A stretch of DNA of 64,000 bases from Streptomyces sp. SID12488. GTDB lineage: Bacteria > Actinomycetota > Actinomycetes > Streptomycetales > Streptomycetaceae. Below are positions 21,318-27,661 of this stretch, piece after piece (the first letter of the stretch is position 1; each line of letters opens with the position of its first letter). Made by a program: the position numbers and the translations under genes. The stretch is taken from the NCBI RefSeq assembly GCF_010548275.1, contig NZ_JAAGLT010000001.1, positions 620,001 through 684,000 on the forward strand, written 5' to 3'. The notes below the pieces were generated by a model. It worked only from the letters and a program-made list of their open reading frames with translations. It searched no databases and was not told the DNA's origin.

Positions 21318-21914
21318 CTATCCGACCAGGTGCCCCAGGTCGTTCCAGCTCTCGATCGCCGGTTCGCCGTAGGCCCATCCCAGGACCGACAGTGATGTCG
21401 GGTTCAGTCTGATCCGTGCCGCGAAGTCGATCGGCAGCCCAAGCCAGCGCGCCCCGATCGACCGCAGTATGTGCCCGTGCGCGAACACCAGCACGTCACG
21501 ATCAGCGGACCGCGCCCACGCGACCACCTCGTCCGCGCGCGCGGTGACCGCCTCCAGGCTCTCGCCCCCGGGGACCCCGTCCCGCCAGATCAGCCAGCCC
21601 GGCCTGACGGCCTGGATCTGCGCCGGGGTCATGCCCTCGTACGTCCCGTAGTCCCACTCCATGAGCGTGTCCCACGCGGTCGCGCGCTCACCGAACCCGG
21701 CGATCTCGCACGTCTCACGCGCGCGTGCCAGTGGGCTCGTGCGCACCTCGACCCCGGGGAGCCCGTCGAAGGGCGCCCGGCTCAGCCGTTCGCCGAGCAG
21801 CTTGGCGCCGCGCCGCCCTTCCCCCATGAGGGGGACGTCGGTCCTGCCGGTGTGCTTGCCGGACAGTGACCACTCCGTCTGCCCGTGCCGGGCCAGCAGG
21901 ATGCGCGATGCCAT
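21318..21914 (-). CDS. Histidine phosphatase family protein (phosphoglycerate-mutase-like)
   Basis: A 198-residue branch-1 histidine phosphatase. The phospho-acceptor His is in [12 protein letters not shown], the partner Arg in [12 protein letters not shown], the acid Glu in [12 protein letters not shown], and the second His in [12 protein letters not shown]. Members act as acid phosphatases or cofactor-dependent mutases; the substrate cannot be fixed here. The ATG at 21914 has GGAAGGGG upstream. Confidence 0.9.
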
Positions 21915-22199
21915 GAGGACCCCTTCCGGGGGGAGACGGTGAGCGTGGCAAATCAGGTGAGAGGCGAACGAAAGGGAACGGTCAAGCGAATCAGGGGTAC
22001 CGAATGGTGGAAAAGCAAGGCGGAACCCCTCCATCATCGCGCACGCTGTCCGGGGGCAACCGGGGGGTCGATCTTTGCGTCTTGTGGGACGGGGGCGCCG
22101 CATGGGGCGTTCACGTACACCGTAAAATCGGACGAACCGCAGGCCACCGACGACCGGAGGCGCAGCTCAACGGGAACACAGAGTGGGAGAGACGATCGG

Positions 22200-23174
22200 A
22201 TGCCGCGGACCGATAGTGCACGGACCGGGGCGGCCTCGCCCACCCGCCTCCGCTGGTGGACCGAGCTGCCACTGCTCCTGCTGGTCTACGCGTGCTATTC
22301 GACCGGACGCCTGCTGGTGCGGGGAGACGAGTCGACCGCCGTCGATCACGGCCTGGCGATCCTCCGGTTCGAGAAGTCCCTGTGGCTGAACGCCGAGCAC
22401 CCGCTCAACCGTCTGTTCACCCGCGAACCCTGGATCGGCGTACCGGCCGACTTCTGGTACGCGTCGCTGCACTACCTCGTCACCCCCGCCATCCTGATCT
22501 GGCTCTTCCGGTCCCGTGCCGTCCACTACCGGGCGGCCCGCGCCTGGCTGATGACCTCGACCTTCATCGGCCTCATCGGCTTCACCCTGCTGCCCACCTG
22601 CCCGCCCCGCCTGCTCGACGCCGGCCACGGCTTCGTGGACACGATGGCCCAGTACAGCTCGTACGGCTGGTGGGGCGGCCAGGCCAGCGCCCCGCGAGGG
22701 CTCGGCGGTATGACGAACCAGTACGCGGCGATGCCCAGCCTGCACGTCGGCTGGGCCCTGTGGTGCGGAGTGATGCTGTGGCGGTACGGCGGTACGCGCA
22801 CCACCAAGGTCCTGGGCGTCGCCTACCCGCTGATCACCACCATCGTGGTCATGGGCACCGCCAACCACTACTTCCTCGACGCCGCCGCGGGCGCCGCCGT
22901 GATGGGCCTCGGGCTGCTGCTGGCACCGCTCGTCATACGGAACGCGGACCGGGCGAGGGCGTGGATCACGGCCCGCGTCGCGCCTGTCGCGCCCGTCGCA
23001 ACGCGCTCTCACGGCGCAGAGGCCCCAATTGTCAGTGGTGAATGCCAGACTTCCCCGCGTGAGCGAATTCCAAGGCAGCGCGAGTCCGTCTTCGGGCCAG
23101 GTCCCGGGCCAGGGGCCGAGCCGAGTACCGCTTCCGCGGACGCGGGGGACGGCGCTGCGGCAGCGGCTCGCTGA
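22200..23174 (+). CDS. PAP2-superfamily membrane phosphatase/phosphotransferase
   Basis: A 324-residue membrane protein with six hydrophobic segments and the PAP2 catalytic motifs: AMPSLHVGWAL with the catalytic His and GTANHYFLDAAAGA with the second His and Asp. The overall layout resembles the inositolphosphotransferase-like PAP2 branch of actinobacteria. The last about 80 residues are Pro/Gly/Ala-rich and cytoplasmic. This tail overlaps the start region and promoter of the nuclease gene (from 23029), so the C-terminal coding sequence also carries the next gene's promoter. Confidence 0.87.
   Translation: MPRTDSARTGAASPTRLRWWTELPLLLLVYACYSTGRLLVRGDESTAVDHGLAILRFEKSLWLNAEHPLNRLFTREPWIGVPADFWYASLHYLVTPAILIWLFRSRAVHYRAARAWLMTSTFIGLIGFTLLPTCPPRLLDAGHGFVDTMAQYSSYGWWGGQASAPRGLGGMTNQYAAMPSLHVGWALWCGVMLWRYGGTRTTKVLGVAYPLITTIVVMGTANHYFLDAAAGAAVMGLGLLLAPLVIRNADRARAWITARVAPVAPVATRSHGAEAPIVSGECQTSPRERIPRQRESVFGPGPGPGAEPSTASADAGDGAAAAAR
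23029..23051 (+). promoter_or_regulatory. RecA-NDp/PafBC-type DNA-damage promoter for the nuclease-helicase operon
   Basis: TTGTCAGTG, then 8 bases, then CAGACT matches the LexA-independent actinobacterial damage promoter (TTGTCRGTG-N8-TAnnnT) except the first base of the -10. The -10 ends 7 bases before the GTG at 23059, the spacing of a leaderless transcript. It lies inside the end of the upstream PAP2 gene. Confidence 0.68.
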
Positions 23175-24435
23175 ACTGCGCGGTCCCGCGGTCCCGCCGA
23201 AGGCACTGGACGCGCGTGCCCTCGCGGCCCTCGCCGCCAACCCCGGGTGCAGACGGCGCGCGATCCTGGACGGCGCGGGGGTGAACAAGGCGACGCTGGC
23301 GAGCGCGCTGGGTTCACCGACCGCCTTCGGACAGTCCCAGTTCGCTCTGGCGCGCGGCAACACCTTCGAGGCCCGGGTCAAGGCCGACGGCGGCGCGGAG
23401 CTGCTCCGGCTGGTGCACGAGAAGCTGGACCCGGGTGCCGAACCGCCGACGGAGGCCGAGGTACCCGACCTCACGGCGAGCGGGCCGGAGGGCCGCACCG
23501 CGCGGACGGCACTGGCCCTGCGCGAAGCCACAGCGGCGGCGCGGGCCGCCACGGGTACGGGTACGGGTACGGGTACGGGTACGGGTACGGGTACGGGTAC
23601 GGGTACGGGTACGGGTACGGGTACGGGTACGGGTACGGGTACGGGTACGGGTACGGGCGGCTGGACGCTCCTCGACCACCCCATGCTCGCCCTCGACGTC
23701 GCGGGCTCGCCGGCCTTCCTGGAACCGGACGCGGTGGTCGTGCACCCCGACGGCAGCTGGACGGTCGTCGAGATCAAGTCCTTCCCGATGCTGGACGGTT
23801 CGGCGGACCCCGCGAAGGTGGGTGCGGCGGCCCGCCAGGCCGCCGTGTACGTGCTGGCGCTGGAGGAGGTCGCCGCTCGGCTCGTCCAGGACGGCGATCC
23901 GGCGCCGGTCGTGCGCCACCGGGTGCTGCTGGTCTGTCCGAAGGACTTCTCCAACCTCGCGGCGGCGTCCGCGGTCGACGTCCGCAAGCAGCGCGCGGTG
24001 ACCGGCCGCCAGCTGTCCCGGCTGACCCGTATCGAGGACATCGCCGACACCCTCCCCGAGGGCACCTGCTTCGACCCGGACCTGCCCACCGCCGAACTGA
24101 CCGCGTCGGTCGAGTCGGTCCCCGCGGAGTACGCGCCGGAGTGCCTGTCCACGTGCGAGCTGGCCTTCCACTGCCGCGACCGTTCCCGCGCGCGGGGCGC
24201 GGTGACGTCCCTGGGCCGTTCCGTACGGGCCGAACTGGGCGCCCTGACCACGGTCGACGACGTCCTGTCGGCGGCCCACGGCCGGTCCGGTGACCCTGCC
24301 GACCCGACGGTGGCCACGCTGCGGAGGGCGGCCACCCTGCGCGCGGAGGCGCTGCGCGGCGCCGAACTCGCCCCTCCGGAGACGGAGTTGGAGCTGGAGT
24401 TGGAGTTGGGGACAGGGGGTGCCGCATGTCGTTGA
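23059..24435 (+). CDS. Cas4/RecB-like PD-(D/E)XK nuclease with probable Fe-S cluster
   Basis: A 458-residue protein. RecB-family nuclease motifs appear in order: GNTFEA (Glu104), EPDAVV (Asp224), VVEIKS (Glu238, Lys240) and RQAAVY (Gln260, Tyr264). One Cys before motif I (Cys64) and three near the C-terminus (Cys362, Cys366, Cys372; spacing CX3CX5C) resemble the 4Fe-4S staple of Cas4, AddB and Dna2, whose usual spacing is CX2CX5C. Residues about 165-200 are 18 Thr-Gly dipeptides from a hexanucleotide repeat, between motif I and II. GTG at 23059 is chosen from the leaderless promoter spacing; TTG at 23029 is an alternative. It overlaps the next gene by 10 bases. Confidence 0.82.
   Translation: MSEFQGSASPSSGQVPGQGPSRVPLPRTRGTALRQRLAELRGPAVPPKALDARALAALAANPGCRRRAILDGAGVNKATLASALGSPTAFGQSQFALARGNTFEARVKADGGAELLRLVHEKLDPGAEPPTEAEVPDLTASGPEGRTARTALALREATAAARAATGTGTGTGTGTGTGTGTGTGTGTGTGTGTGTGTGTGGWTLLDHPMLALDVAGSPAFLEPDAVVVHPDGSWTVVEIKSFPMLDGSADPAKVGAAARQAAVYVLALEEVAARLVQDGDPAPVVRHRVLLVCPKDFSNLAAASAVDVRKQRAVTGRQLSRLTRIEDIADTLPEGTCFDPDLPTAELTASVESVPAEYAPECLSTCELAFHCRDRSRARGAVTSLGRSVRAELGALTTVDDVLSAAHGRSGDPADPTVATLRRAATLRAEALRGAELAPPETELELELELGTGGAACR
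23551..23658 (+). repeat. 18-copy hexanucleotide (ACGGGT) tandem repeat inside the nuclease gene
   Basis: Seventeen perfect ACGGGT units and a final ACGGGC encode (Thr-Gly)18. The unit is a multiple of three, so changes in copy number keep the frame and only change linker length. The repeat is open in all six frames, which creates long spurious reading frames here. Confidence 0.97.
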
Positions 24436-26054
24436 TCGCCACGCTCGCCCGCCTCGAAGCAGTCAGCACCGGGCGCGCCCAGCCCGCCGCCACCGTCCGG
24501 CACCGCCATCTGTCCGAGCGGCCGCTCGTCCTCGTACCGCTGATCACCGCCGGTGAGGCCGGGGCTCCGCTGGGCGCGCTGGTCGGCGACGACCGGGACG
24601 CGCCGCGTCTGCTCGTCGTACCTCAGCCGCGCGACCGCGACCTCAGGTTCGCGTTCCTCGCCGAACTGGCCGACGTCGTCCTGCCGTTCATCGACTCCCA
24701 CGCCGAAGCCGTGGAGGCCGCGGAGCGCAACGAGATCGACCCGGAGACCGGCAAGCGCGTAAAGGTCGAGGTCGAACTGTGCGCGGACGCACCCCAGTTG
24801 ATCGTCCCGAGCCGCGCCGGCATCGACTTCGTACGGCTGCTGGGGCGCTCGATGCGCTTCAGGCGTACGGCGGAACAGGACCCGGAGACGCCACATCCCG
24901 CGCCGCCCCATGTGCCGTTGCTCGGCCGCTGGTTCACGCACTACGGGGAGCGGGCCCGGGTCCCCGGCTCCGCCCTCCTCCTGGCGCTGACGGACGTGCT
25001 GTCGCGGCACTGGGCCACCGGTCAGTCCACGCTGGAGGACCAGCACCTGGGTGCGCTGCTCGCCTGGATCGACCCGCCGGACGGGGTGTCGGGCGCCGAG
25101 GCGGCGCTGCGGGCCGAGTTGGCGCGGGACGGGAAGGGGCAGCTGCTGTGGCCGCCGGCCGGTCCGGCGACCGACCCCGCGTTCGACAACAAGCTGCTCG
25201 CCCCCGCGATCGAGAACTACAACCGCGCGCGGACGGCGCTCGCCGGCGCCGAGGACGGTGAGTCGGCGGACGACCGGCTCGGTGTACTCACCGCCACCGA
25301 GCGGGAGATCCGCGCCCTCGTCGAGAGCCGTACGCGGCCCACCTGGGACGCGGTGTGGCGCGGCCTCGACCTCCTGAGGACGCTGCCGGAGGGCGCGCAC
25401 GCGGGCGACAGGTGGACGCGCGACCGGTGGTCGTTCACCGGCCACCGCGACCGGGTCACCGCGGGCGAGCCCCCGCAGCCACGCCGCGACGACGCGGTGA
25501 CGGCGGCGAACAAACTGGCCACGCGCGAGCGCGAGCAGGCCCGTCTGGAGGCCCAGGAGGCCTTGGACGACCCGCTGGTGATGGCGGGCCGACGGCTGTC
25601 CGGGGAGGCGTTCGCGGGCGAGGTCACGGACGTCGTCATGACGTACAGCGAGGGCAAGCGCCCGAGCCCGCGCCCATTGGTCACCGTCCGCACCGACGAC
25701 CGCCCGCAGCTCGCCGAGCGGGTGAAGGTGTACCGCTCGCTGGGCGGCAAGCCGCAGGCGGCGGAGTTCGTGGGCCGTGAGGACGGTCCGGGAGCGGAGG
25801 GTTCGGGATCCGAGGGTTCGGTGATCGTCCTGCGAGTGGTCGACAAGATGGGCCGCGGCAAGGAGCCCGAGGTCGGATCAGTGCCCGAGAAGGGGGACCT
25901 GATCTGCTTCACGCTCTTCGAGCACGAACAGCGGGGCGGCGCGAAGCTCCCCGACGCGGACCAGACCCCGTGGACCCACGGCGGCCCACCGGGCGAGGAA
26001 GCGACACCGACGCTGCCGGCGGCCGACCCGGTGACCGAGGAGGACATCCTGTGA
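24426..26054 (+). CDS. Conserved protein of the nuclease-helicase operon, function unknown
   Basis: A 542-residue soluble protein with no signal peptide, membrane segment or motif I recognise. The N-terminal 250 residues are mixed alpha/beta (PLVLVPLITAGEAG, LRFAFLAELADVVLPFIDSH); the middle is helical and charged with a coiled-coil-like run (AANKLATREREQARLEAQEA); the C-terminal 150 residues look like a beta-barrel (VTDVVMTYSEGKR, LICFTLFEHEQ). The start overlaps the nuclease by 10 bases and the helicase starts 79 bases after it, so the three proteins probably work together. It may bind DNA or bridge the other two; this is inference from context only. Confidence 0.75.
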   Translation: MSLIATLARLEAVSTGRAQPAATVRHRHLSERPLVLVPLITAGEAGAPLGALVGDDRDAPRLLVVPQPRDRDLRFAFLAELADVVLPFIDSHAEAVEAAERNEIDPETGKRVKVEVELCADAPQLIVPSRAGIDFVRLLGRSMRFRRTAEQDPETPHPAPPHVPLLGRWFTHYGERARVPGSALLLALTDVLSRHWATGQSTLEDQHLGALLAWIDPPDGVSGAEAALRAELARDGKGQLLWPPAGPATDPAFDNKLLAPAIENYNRARTALAGAEDGESADDRLGVLTATEREIRALVESRTRPTWDAVWRGLDLLRTLPEGAHAGDRWTRDRWSFTGHRDRVTAGEPPQPRRDDAVTAANKLATREREQARLEAQEALDDPLVMAGRRLSGEAFAGEVTDVVMTYSEGKRPSPRPLVTVRTDDRPQLAERVKVYRSLGGKPQAAEFVGREDGPGAEGSGSEGSVIVLRVVDKMGRGKEPEVGSVPEKGDLICFTLFEHEQRGGAKLPDADQTPWTHGGPPGEEATPTLPAADPVTEEDIL

Positions 26055-26133
26055 ACGCCGGTTCGCGGAGGGGTTTTTCGATCGCCGCCGCCCAACGACA
26101 CCGCTGCCGCCCCACCCCCGAGGAAGGCCCCCT

Positions 26134-27486
26134 GTGAACCCCGCTCACCCCCCGCAGGCCGCCTTCGATCCCGGCGCCGCCGCCGGGCGGGCCACCGACG
26201 CGATCCTCCGCGACACGCTGCACGGCACCCACCGCGGAGTCGTCGTCGACTCGCCGCCCGGGGCCGGGAAGTCCACGCTCGTGGTCCGGGCCGCGCTCGA
26301 ACTGGCCGAGGCCGGGCGCCCGTTGATGGTCATCGCGCAGACGAACGCCCAGGTCGACGACCTCGTCGTCCGCCTCGCCGAGAAGAACCCCGAGCTGCCG
26401 GTTGGCCGCCTGCACAGCAGTGACTCCGACCCGTACGACAAGGCGCTGGACGACCTGCCGAACGTACGGAAGTCCGCGAAGGCGGCCGAGCTCGCGGGCC
26501 TGGACGTGGTGATCTCCACGGCCGCCAAGTGGGCCCACGTCAAGGTCGACGAGCCATGGCGGCACGCGATCGTGGACGAGGCGTACCAGATGCGCTCGGA
26601 CGCGCTGCTCGCCGTCGCCGGACTGTTCGAGCGGGCCCTGTTCGTGGGCGACCCGGGCCAGCTGGACCCCTTCTCGATCGTCGGCGCGGAACAGTGGGCG
26701 GGCCTGTCGTACGACCCGTCGGCCTCGGCGGTCACGACCCTCCTGGCCCACAACCCCGAGCTGCCCCAGCACCGCCTGCCGGTGTCCTGGCGGCTCCCGG
26801 CCTCGGCCGCGCCACTCGTCTCGGCCGCCTTCTACCCGTACACCCCGTTCCGCAGCGGCACCGGCCACGGCGACCGGCGGCTCGCCTTCGCGGTCCCGTC
26901 GGACGGCTCGGCCCCGGACCGGGTGCTCGACGAGGCCGCCGAATCGGGCTGGGGCCTGCTGGAACTCCCCGCCCGGCACACCCCGCGCACGGACCCCGAG
27001 GCGGTACGCGCGGTTGCCCTGGTCGTACGCCGCATGCTGGACCGGGGCGGCGCGGCCACGTCGGAACGCGGGCCCGACCCGACGCCGCTCACGGCCGACC
27101 GGATCGCGGTCGGCACCGCGCACCGGGATCAGGCGGCGGCCGTCCGGGCGGCGCTCGCCGAGCTGGGGGTCGCGGACGTCACCGTGGACACGGCGAACCG
27201 CCTCCAGGGGCGGGAGTTCGACGTGACGGTGATCCTGCACCCCCTCTCCGGCCGCCCCGACGCCACCGCCTTCCACCTGGAGACGGGCCGCCTCTGCGTC
27301 CTCGCCTCCAGACACCGGCACGCGTGCGTGGTGGTGTGCCGAGCGGGCGTGACGGAACTCCTGGACGACCATCCGTCGACGGAGCCGGTCCAGCTCGGGG
27401 TGACGGTGAAGTTCCCGGACGGCTGGGAGGCGATGATGTCCACATGGGATCGCTGGTCCGAGCACCGGGTGTCCTGGCAGCCGTGA
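26134..27486 (+). CDS. UPF1/Dna2-like superfamily 1 helicase
   Basis: A 450-residue SF1 helicase core. Motif I is DSPPGAGKST (Lys46), motif Ia VIAQTNAQVDDLV, motif II HAIVDEAYQM (Asp148, Glu149), motif III FVGDPGQLDP (Asp173), motif V DTANRLQGREFDV and motif VI VLASRHRHACVVV. The GDPGQLDP and LQGREFD forms are those of the SF1B UPF1/Dna2 group, likely 5'-3' movement. The GTG at 26134 has GAGGAAGG upstream. It is the third gene of the nuclease operon. Its C-terminal residues (PDGWEA ... EHRVSWQP) recur in degenerate form 100 bases downstream. Confidence 0.87.
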   Translation: MNPAHPPQAAFDPGAAAGRATDAILRDTLHGTHRGVVVDSPPGAGKSTLVVRAALELAEAGRPLMVIAQTNAQVDDLVVRLAEKNPELPVGRLHSSDSDPYDKALDDLPNVRKSAKAAELAGLDVVISTAAKWAHVKVDEPWRHAIVDEAYQMRSDALLAVAGLFERALFVGDPGQLDPFSIVGAEQWAGLSYDPSASAVTTLLAHNPELPQHRLPVSWRLPASAAPLVSAAFYPYTPFRSGTGHGDRRLAFAVPSDGSAPDRVLDEAAESGWGLLELPARHTPRTDPEAVRAVALVVRRMLDRGGAATSERGPDPTPLTADRIAVGTAHRDQAAAVRAALAELGVADVTVDTANRLQGREFDVTVILHPLSGRPDATAFHLETGRLCVLASRHRHACVVVCRAGVTELLDDHPSTEPVQLGVTVKFPDGWEAMMSTWDRWSEHRVSWQP

Positions 27487-27577: not shown

Positions 27578-27661
27578 ATGGTTACAGCCCCCGACGGCTG
27601 GGAGGCGAACCACGCCGTGCTGTCGCATCTCGCGGAGCACCGGGTGCCCTGGCGGCCGTAG
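27578..27661 (+). pseudogene. Duplicated helicase C-terminal tail
   Basis: The reading frame from ATG 27578 to TAG 27661 encodes MVTAPDGWEANHAVL...AEHRVPWRP (27 residues). It aligns with the last residues of the helicase gene (PDGWEA, eight changed residues, then SEHRVSWQP). The rest of the 27487-27828 gap has no other gene. It looks like a relic of a tandem duplication or of allelic replacement of the helicase 3' end. Confidence 0.75.

Follow-up and report, generated by a model that had tools for sequence, protein, structure and literature searches.

Three adjacent genes of Streptomyces probably encode the parts of a Dna2-like helicase-nuclease behind a damage-type promoter

Do three consecutive genes of Streptomyces sp. 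SID12488, coding for a predicted nuclease, a protein without a known family and a predicted helicase, specify a single machine, and when would such a machine be made? The genes, called A, B and C here, lie in a window of 64,000 nucleotides (contig NZ_JAAGLT010000001.1, positions 620,001 to 684,000) with a Streptomyces-like G+C content of ~70%. An initial annotation of this DNA had proposed a possible split Dna2 operon, and the three open reading frames (ORFs) that it claimed were confirmed at the coordinates listed below. Genes, synteny, motifs, the folds of B, promoter conservation and gene neighbourhoods were computed. We consider it probable that the three genes encode, piece by piece, a single Dna2-like helicase-nuclease, of which the core form would be induced by DNA damage and the accessory form linked to defence. 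No description of the operon was found in literature searches, which did not reach bioRxiv and many subscription papers.

23059 to 24435, plus strand: gene A, 458 amino acids (aa), GTG start, predicted Fe-S-type PD-(D/E)XK (Cas4/AddB/Dna2-like) nuclease
24426 to 26054, plus strand: gene B, 542 aa, its start lying within the end of A (10-nt overlap)
26134 to 27486, plus strand: gene C, 450 aa, UPF1/Dna2-like superfamily 1 (SF1) helicase core with domains 1A and 2A only
26245 to 26283, plus strand: Walker A motif of C, VDSPPGAGKSTLV, invariant

Gene C had been read as a UPF1/Dna2-like SF1 helicase, and the profile searches agreed. The Pfam families AAA_11 and AAA_12 (PF13086/13087) matched above the cut-off and UvrD_C_2 below it, and PADLOC returned partial helicase-domain matches only. 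When the profile of the C family was compared with the PDB, Dna2 (5eax) was the best match (E 4.6e-11), followed by Ighmbp2 and UPF1. The matches started at domain 1A (Dna2 642, Ighmbp2 207), indicating that the stalk and 1B, which lie ahead of 1A in Dna2/Ighmbp2-type enzymes, are missing from C.

24513 to 25415, plus strand: B residues 30-330, probably inactive domain resembling the exonuclease of family-B DNA polymerases (AlphaFold2, AF2, and VIA)
25485 to 25970, plus strand: B residues 354-515, predicted UPF1-like helicase stalk with its 1B beta-barrel (VIA)

The missing part appears to be supplied by gene B. This protein has no family in Pfam, NCBIfam, PADLOC or PHROGs and had been described as being of unknown fold, a description that structure prediction revises. 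In the full-length AF2 model (predicted local distance difference test, pLDDT, 81), residues 354-515 were aligned by VIA-align with Ighmbp2 3-159 (Z 9.4), and the next matches were Sen1 (Z 8.4), Senataxin (Z 8.4) and Dna2 461-568 (Z 8.1); according to the tool, Z below ~8 may be background, and unrelated beta-barrels crowd in at Z ~7, below the helicase rows. The N-terminal 350 residues, modelled alone from 28 sequences, gave a pLDDT of 93.9 and a predicted TM-score (pTM) of 0.91, and all 50 VIA matches listed for this domain were family-B DNA polymerases, aligned in their exonuclease domain (Z 8.8-9.8, 170-189 residues, root-mean-square deviation 3.4-4.0), the matched ranges including KOD/Tgo 135-341 and Pol alpha 536-776. 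When the matched ranges are carried over arithmetically, B 37-39 (Val-Pro-Leu) correspond to the Exo I carboxylates of KOD, so the exonuclease-like domain is probably without its catalytic acids and inactive. The corresponding domain of Pol alpha is inactive. Foldseek returned nothing significant for the full B model (EF-Tu and BAR-PH rows, with Ighmbp2 at rank 47), and the polymerases found with the N-terminal fragment, at E 0.03 and worse, were not significant, so the likeness of B to polymerases is a resemblance of fold; a BFVD search with B gave noise only. The models thus largely explain the middle protein, its C-terminal half being the predicted stalk and 1B barrel, which is the part absent from C.

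23248 to 23250, plus strand: Cys64 codon of A, first of the four-cysteine set, invariant in 33 homologues
23728 to 23778, plus strand: predicted nuclease motif of A, Asp224 ... Glu238-x-Lys240, intact in 27 of 33 homologues
24142 to 24174, plus strand: CysX3CysX5Cys of A (Cys362, 366, 372), invariant in 33 homologues
23551 to 23657, plus strand: ACGGGT hexanucleotide repeat inside A, encoding (Gly-Thr)18, read directly

Gene A was assigned as a Cas4/AddB/Dna2-type nuclease mainly from its PD-(D/E)XK and cysteine motifs and from the alignment of its cysteine region, in register, with the TM0106-family nucleases (profile-profile comparison, E 0.0055). The residue numbers of the initial annotation are correct when counted from the GTG start. 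Among the 33 aligned homologues (the other 32 share 42-84% identity with the window copy), the four cysteines named there as Fe-S-type are all invariant and probably form a 4Fe-4S staple, the cluster itself being a prediction, while Asp224, Glu238 and Lys240 form an EPD...ExK motif that, together with QxxxY, is intact in 27. The Cas4 models of Pfam and NCBIfam did not match A, an NCBIfam scan at E up to 1 gave no match (TIGR03491 included), and the A profile met only designed repeat proteins and chance matches in the PDB. When the first 30 sequences were scanned, one further Gly-Thr run was seen (L049, 10 residues), and none was as long as that of the window.

27581 to 27661, plus strand: C-terminal segment of C in a second copy, detached from the gene and ending in DGWEANHAVLSHLAEHRVPWRP before the stop (profile match, E 6.5e-5)

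The end of C also recurs downstream of the gene, and similar repeats occur at this place in other Streptomyces. Among 99 sequences scanned (the window and 98 loci), two or three copies of the canonical end were seen in 17 loci. The window holds one variant and one canonical copy, and the variant end (MMST/MMTT type) was shared with L031, L033 and L089.

23029 to 23051, plus strand: candidate RecA-NDp/PafBC-type promoter, TTGTCAGTG at 23029-23037, N8, CAGACT at 23046-23051
21885 to 23174 (stop 23174): PAP2 gene, whose 3' end overlaps A by ~116 bp and contains the promoter

The second part of the question concerns the occasion on which the operon is made. The proposed PafBC/RecA-NDp-like promoter ends in a CAGACT that sits 7 nt upstream of GTG 23059, a leaderless layout, and since PAP2 extends across the promoter it is coding and not intergenic; a PAP2/A overlap of ~100 bp was seen again in relatives. 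A single TTGTCRGTG in 64 kb, against 0.65 expected, is unsurprising alone. Upstream of A in 95 Streptomyces loci, TTGTC[AG]GTG was exact in 86, carried one mismatch in seven and two mismatches in one (in one locus the contig ends before the site). Across 93 motif-selected loci, the conserved block spanned (n)AGACTTC to GGGTGAGC, with much of the upstream sequence far more variable; the block is partly coding in two overlapping frames, which may contribute to its conservation.

The full motif was also enriched genome-wide. TTGTCRGTG-N9-A-N3-T occurred at 70 sites in the source genome against 2 in the reversed control, and the version with A at 16-77 sites per genome against 0-1 in all 26 Streptomyces genomes counted. 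Several of the 30 sites read lay 6-9 nt before a start codon, and with gene names assigned from translated N-termini these included recA (7, GTG), a DNA polymerase I-like gene (7, GTG), a HolA-like gene (7), an Lhr-like helicase (6) and a DinG-like helicase (9), beside A itself (7, GTG). The damage-type promoter is thus supported by conservation among orthologues, enrichment of the full motif and the layout common to recA and polA, and the operon is accordingly expected to be made after DNA damage. The original description of the RecA-NDp promoter concerned recA of S. rimosus (cited in PMC5087735), and the promoter is linked to PafBC in mycobacteria (PMC8223512). For S. venezuelae, an initial search was reported to suggest a lack of conservation of the PafBC motif known from mycobacteria (PMC9380542); the 16-77 sites against 0-1 in 26 Streptomyces genomes, among which S. 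venezuelae was not counted by name, bear on that suggestion.

Conserved co-occurrence of the three genes had been put forward as a check on the proposal, and it was observed. B was present in 282 of 296 Streptomyces genomes, in 32 of the 41 genomes of a first sample (source genome counted) and in 15 of the 137 genera sampled evenly across the class, and A-B-C was patchy among actinomycetes other than Streptomyces. The order A-B-C was kept in synteny in nearly all relatives among the Streptomyces and Streptosporangiales-type loci examined, and in Streptomyces the core copy keeps its place beside PAP2. Loss of C from two genomes (G243 and G851) was considered and rejected, as C was found ~37 kb from A-B in both, indicating that the set is retained even when unlinked. 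In G010, A had no match and B was apparently frameshifted; a B-C fusion suspected there was dropped because it looks like a frameshift. A search for C in phages found none.

Divergent copies of A-B-C carry a fourth gene, H (~280 aa), which has no family match. SbcD was encoded divergently upstream in 15 of the 26 H-A-B-C loci read, accompanied by SbcC in 14 of the 15 (the exception, L151, matched over a 171-residue SbcD stretch only), and Wadjet jet genes were found in 4 of the 15 SbcCD-linked loci (L147, L148, L202 and L212), fractions that are not population estimates because the accessory loci were partly picked by similarity to a plasmid copy. Matches were fragmented or partial in L148, as were those to SbcC in L153 and L213. 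The linkage to SbcCD is seen in two separate clades, the SbcCD-linked clade spans several families, and accessory copies were also found on plasmids. In G902 and in those Streptomyces genomes that were examined, the cassette SbcD is a second copy with ~33% identity to the usual one; only one SbcD was seen in G027 and G037. A search that had no positive control did not find H in twelve genomes that have A-B-C and lack a linked H.

Some cassettes lay near the ends of replicons: at 3.3-9.6 kb of G564 contig C1 (8.27 Mb) and at ~15 kb of G1001 contig C1 (8.87 Mb), both chromosome-sized, and at 284-289 kb of the 300-kb linear plasmid NZ_CP108489.1. Additionally, TTGTCAGTG-N8-TAnnnT was seen 79-91 nt upstream of jetA beside the accessory cassette in three loci (L147:11931, L202:12006 and L212:5225, minus), which suggests that Wadjet may be under damage control there; the RecA-NDp motif was not seen upstream of jetA in L148.

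Several observations weigh against a damage-induced Dna2-like enzyme. A has no at-threshold match in Pfam, NCBIfam or PADLOC, and PDDEXK_1 matches its family weakly, reaching 5 of 24 members with E 0.0021 at best. In a clade of six A paralogues (L150, L152 and L207-L210), all without adjoining SbcCD, the motif has degenerated to LxR, or once to APQ...ExR, with all four cysteines kept; as this clade has lost the nuclease Glu/Lys, nuclease activity is dispensable in places. B has no sequence-level match to helicase 1B domains or to polymerase exonucleases, so both assignments rest on fold comparison at middling Z values of 8-10. The -10 element of the A promoter begins with C and not T, and the motif was absent at A or H of the accessory loci, confining damage control to the core operon. 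Finally, TIGR03491, the model of the TM0106-type fusions discussed below, had no match in the source genome.

Three other explanations were weighed. The accessory copies beside SbcCD, with Wadjet in 4 of 15 such loci, their presence on plasmids and the range of the SbcCD-linked clade over several families would fit a defence system, with phage or plasmid DNA degraded by the core operon and related loci and expression boosted from the damage promoter during infection. We regard this as unlikely for the operon as a whole, because the core copy is near-universal in Streptomyces and fixed beside PAP2, unlike patchy defence genes, because A, B and H have no PADLOC family and because the promoter type is common to recA and polA. 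It is quite improbable that A-B-C clears transcripts or RNA-DNA hybrids (R-loops) at damaged sites: UPF1-like motors such as C often act on RNA and the nearest folds to the B barrel are the RNA/DNA helicases Ighmbp2, Sen1 and Senataxin, whereas the motif and cysteines of A are those of Cas4/AddB/Dna2-type DNA nucleases, the top profile match of C is Dna2, and the neighbours SbcCD and Wadjet act on DNA. That the three are separate, merely co-regulated proteins, with B an unrelated DNA-binding protein of coincidental folds, would agree with the absence of sequence homology of B to known domains and with C lying ~37 kb away in two genomes, but is very improbable given that genes overlap, that their order is fixed across large divergence and that B carries exactly the part that C is without, in the right order.

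Under the preferred reading of A, B and C as one Dna2-like helicase-nuclease, complex formation, activity, polarity, induction and role are inferred from domains and neighbours. A would be the nuclease, closed by its four-cysteine staple; B the scaffold, in which the stalk and 1B barrel come after an exonuclease-like, probably inactive domain that would bind DNA; and C, with 1A and 2A, the ATP-driven motor, for which 5' to 3' movement on single strands is expected as in other UPF1-type SF1B enzymes. B would complete the helicase of C and hold A where the tracked strand emerges from the motor; single strands, once unwound, could then be cut by A, driven by ATP, at broken ends or stalled forks. 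The core operon would be made after DNA damage from its leaderless RecA-NDp/PafBC-type promoter. In the horizontally moving accessory form, SbcCD may first open blocked ends, and this form, with H, SbcCD and sometimes Wadjet, would probably degrade foreign or cleaved DNA ends. Most likely the machine serves, on induction by damage, to process DNA ends or stalled forks, one branch being linked to defence. The initial annotation had drawn resection, fork repair or defence from domains and promoter; that role is still an inference, to which the linkage to SbcCD and Wadjet adds contextual evidence.

As a tentative extension, to which we give rather less credence, the operon may represent an undescribed three-subunit Dna2-type resection machine with a pol-B-like pseudo-exonuclease scaffold, and its mobile branch, with its own Mre11-Rad50 and H, a bacterial counterpart of MRN-Dna2 that serves partly in defence beside Wadjet. 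Such an accessory branch would tie end processing to anti-plasmid defence. Streptomyces is genetically tractable, and this near-core operon is therefore open to direct deletion tests. Having the 1B/stalk and the motor of a helicase as separate genes would also offer a way to dissect the coupling of UPF1-type motors and Fe-S nucleases.

Compared with known systems, the promoter resembles RecA-NDp/PafBC promoters in TTGTCRGTG-N8 before the -10 element and in its leaderless layout, as at recA and polA of the source genome, but has (n)AGACT where these have TAnnnT. In UvrD-Cas4-like fusions and operons, a Cas4-like nuclease is paired with an SF1 helicase, at times as separate genes; the helicase there is UvrD-like and, in the part of the source available, no middle scaffold gene is described, unlike A-B-C (PMC5704561). 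AddAB, AdnAB and RecBCD share the helicase-nuclease pairing, and AddB the Fe-S staple, whereas their motors are UvrD-like and C is UPF1-like.

Dna2 is closer. The PD-(D/E)XK motif with four Fe-S-type cysteines is common to Dna2 and A, and both the UPF1-like core (C) and the stalk/1B barrel (B, by fold, Dna2 461-568) are matched. Dna2 is one polypeptide, whereas three separate ORFs were found in the loci read, and its last cysteines are spaced C-x2-C-x5-C, compared with C-x3-C-x5-C in A. To our knowledge, no exonuclease domain of the polymerase-B type separates nuclease and stalk in Dna2. The split-Dna2 proposal therefore stands as regards the nuclease and helicase features, with the stalk/1B now found in B, but not as an exact Dna2, the TM0106-type layout being closer.

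TM0106-type fusions in the same class (TIGR03491, PF13482, PF13086/13087) are single chains of ~1100-1270 aa in which a nuclease, RNase_H_2 (e.g. 327-503) and, from ~745, a UPF1-like helicase follow one another in the gene order A-B-C, in one chain there and three genes here. RNase_H_2 (PF13482) has no Pfam match in B, which shows a related exonuclease fold by structure, and profile-profile comparison of B with the TM0106 middle regions gave no detectable similarity. As TIGR03491 does not recognise the source genome, we claim that A-B-C may be built and work like the TM0106 fusions, not that it is a member. C aligns with them over 346 columns (E 4e-23), the cysteine region of A is in register, and the predicted exonuclease-like domain and stalk/1B of B, lying between A and C, would make A-B-C collinear with these fusions.

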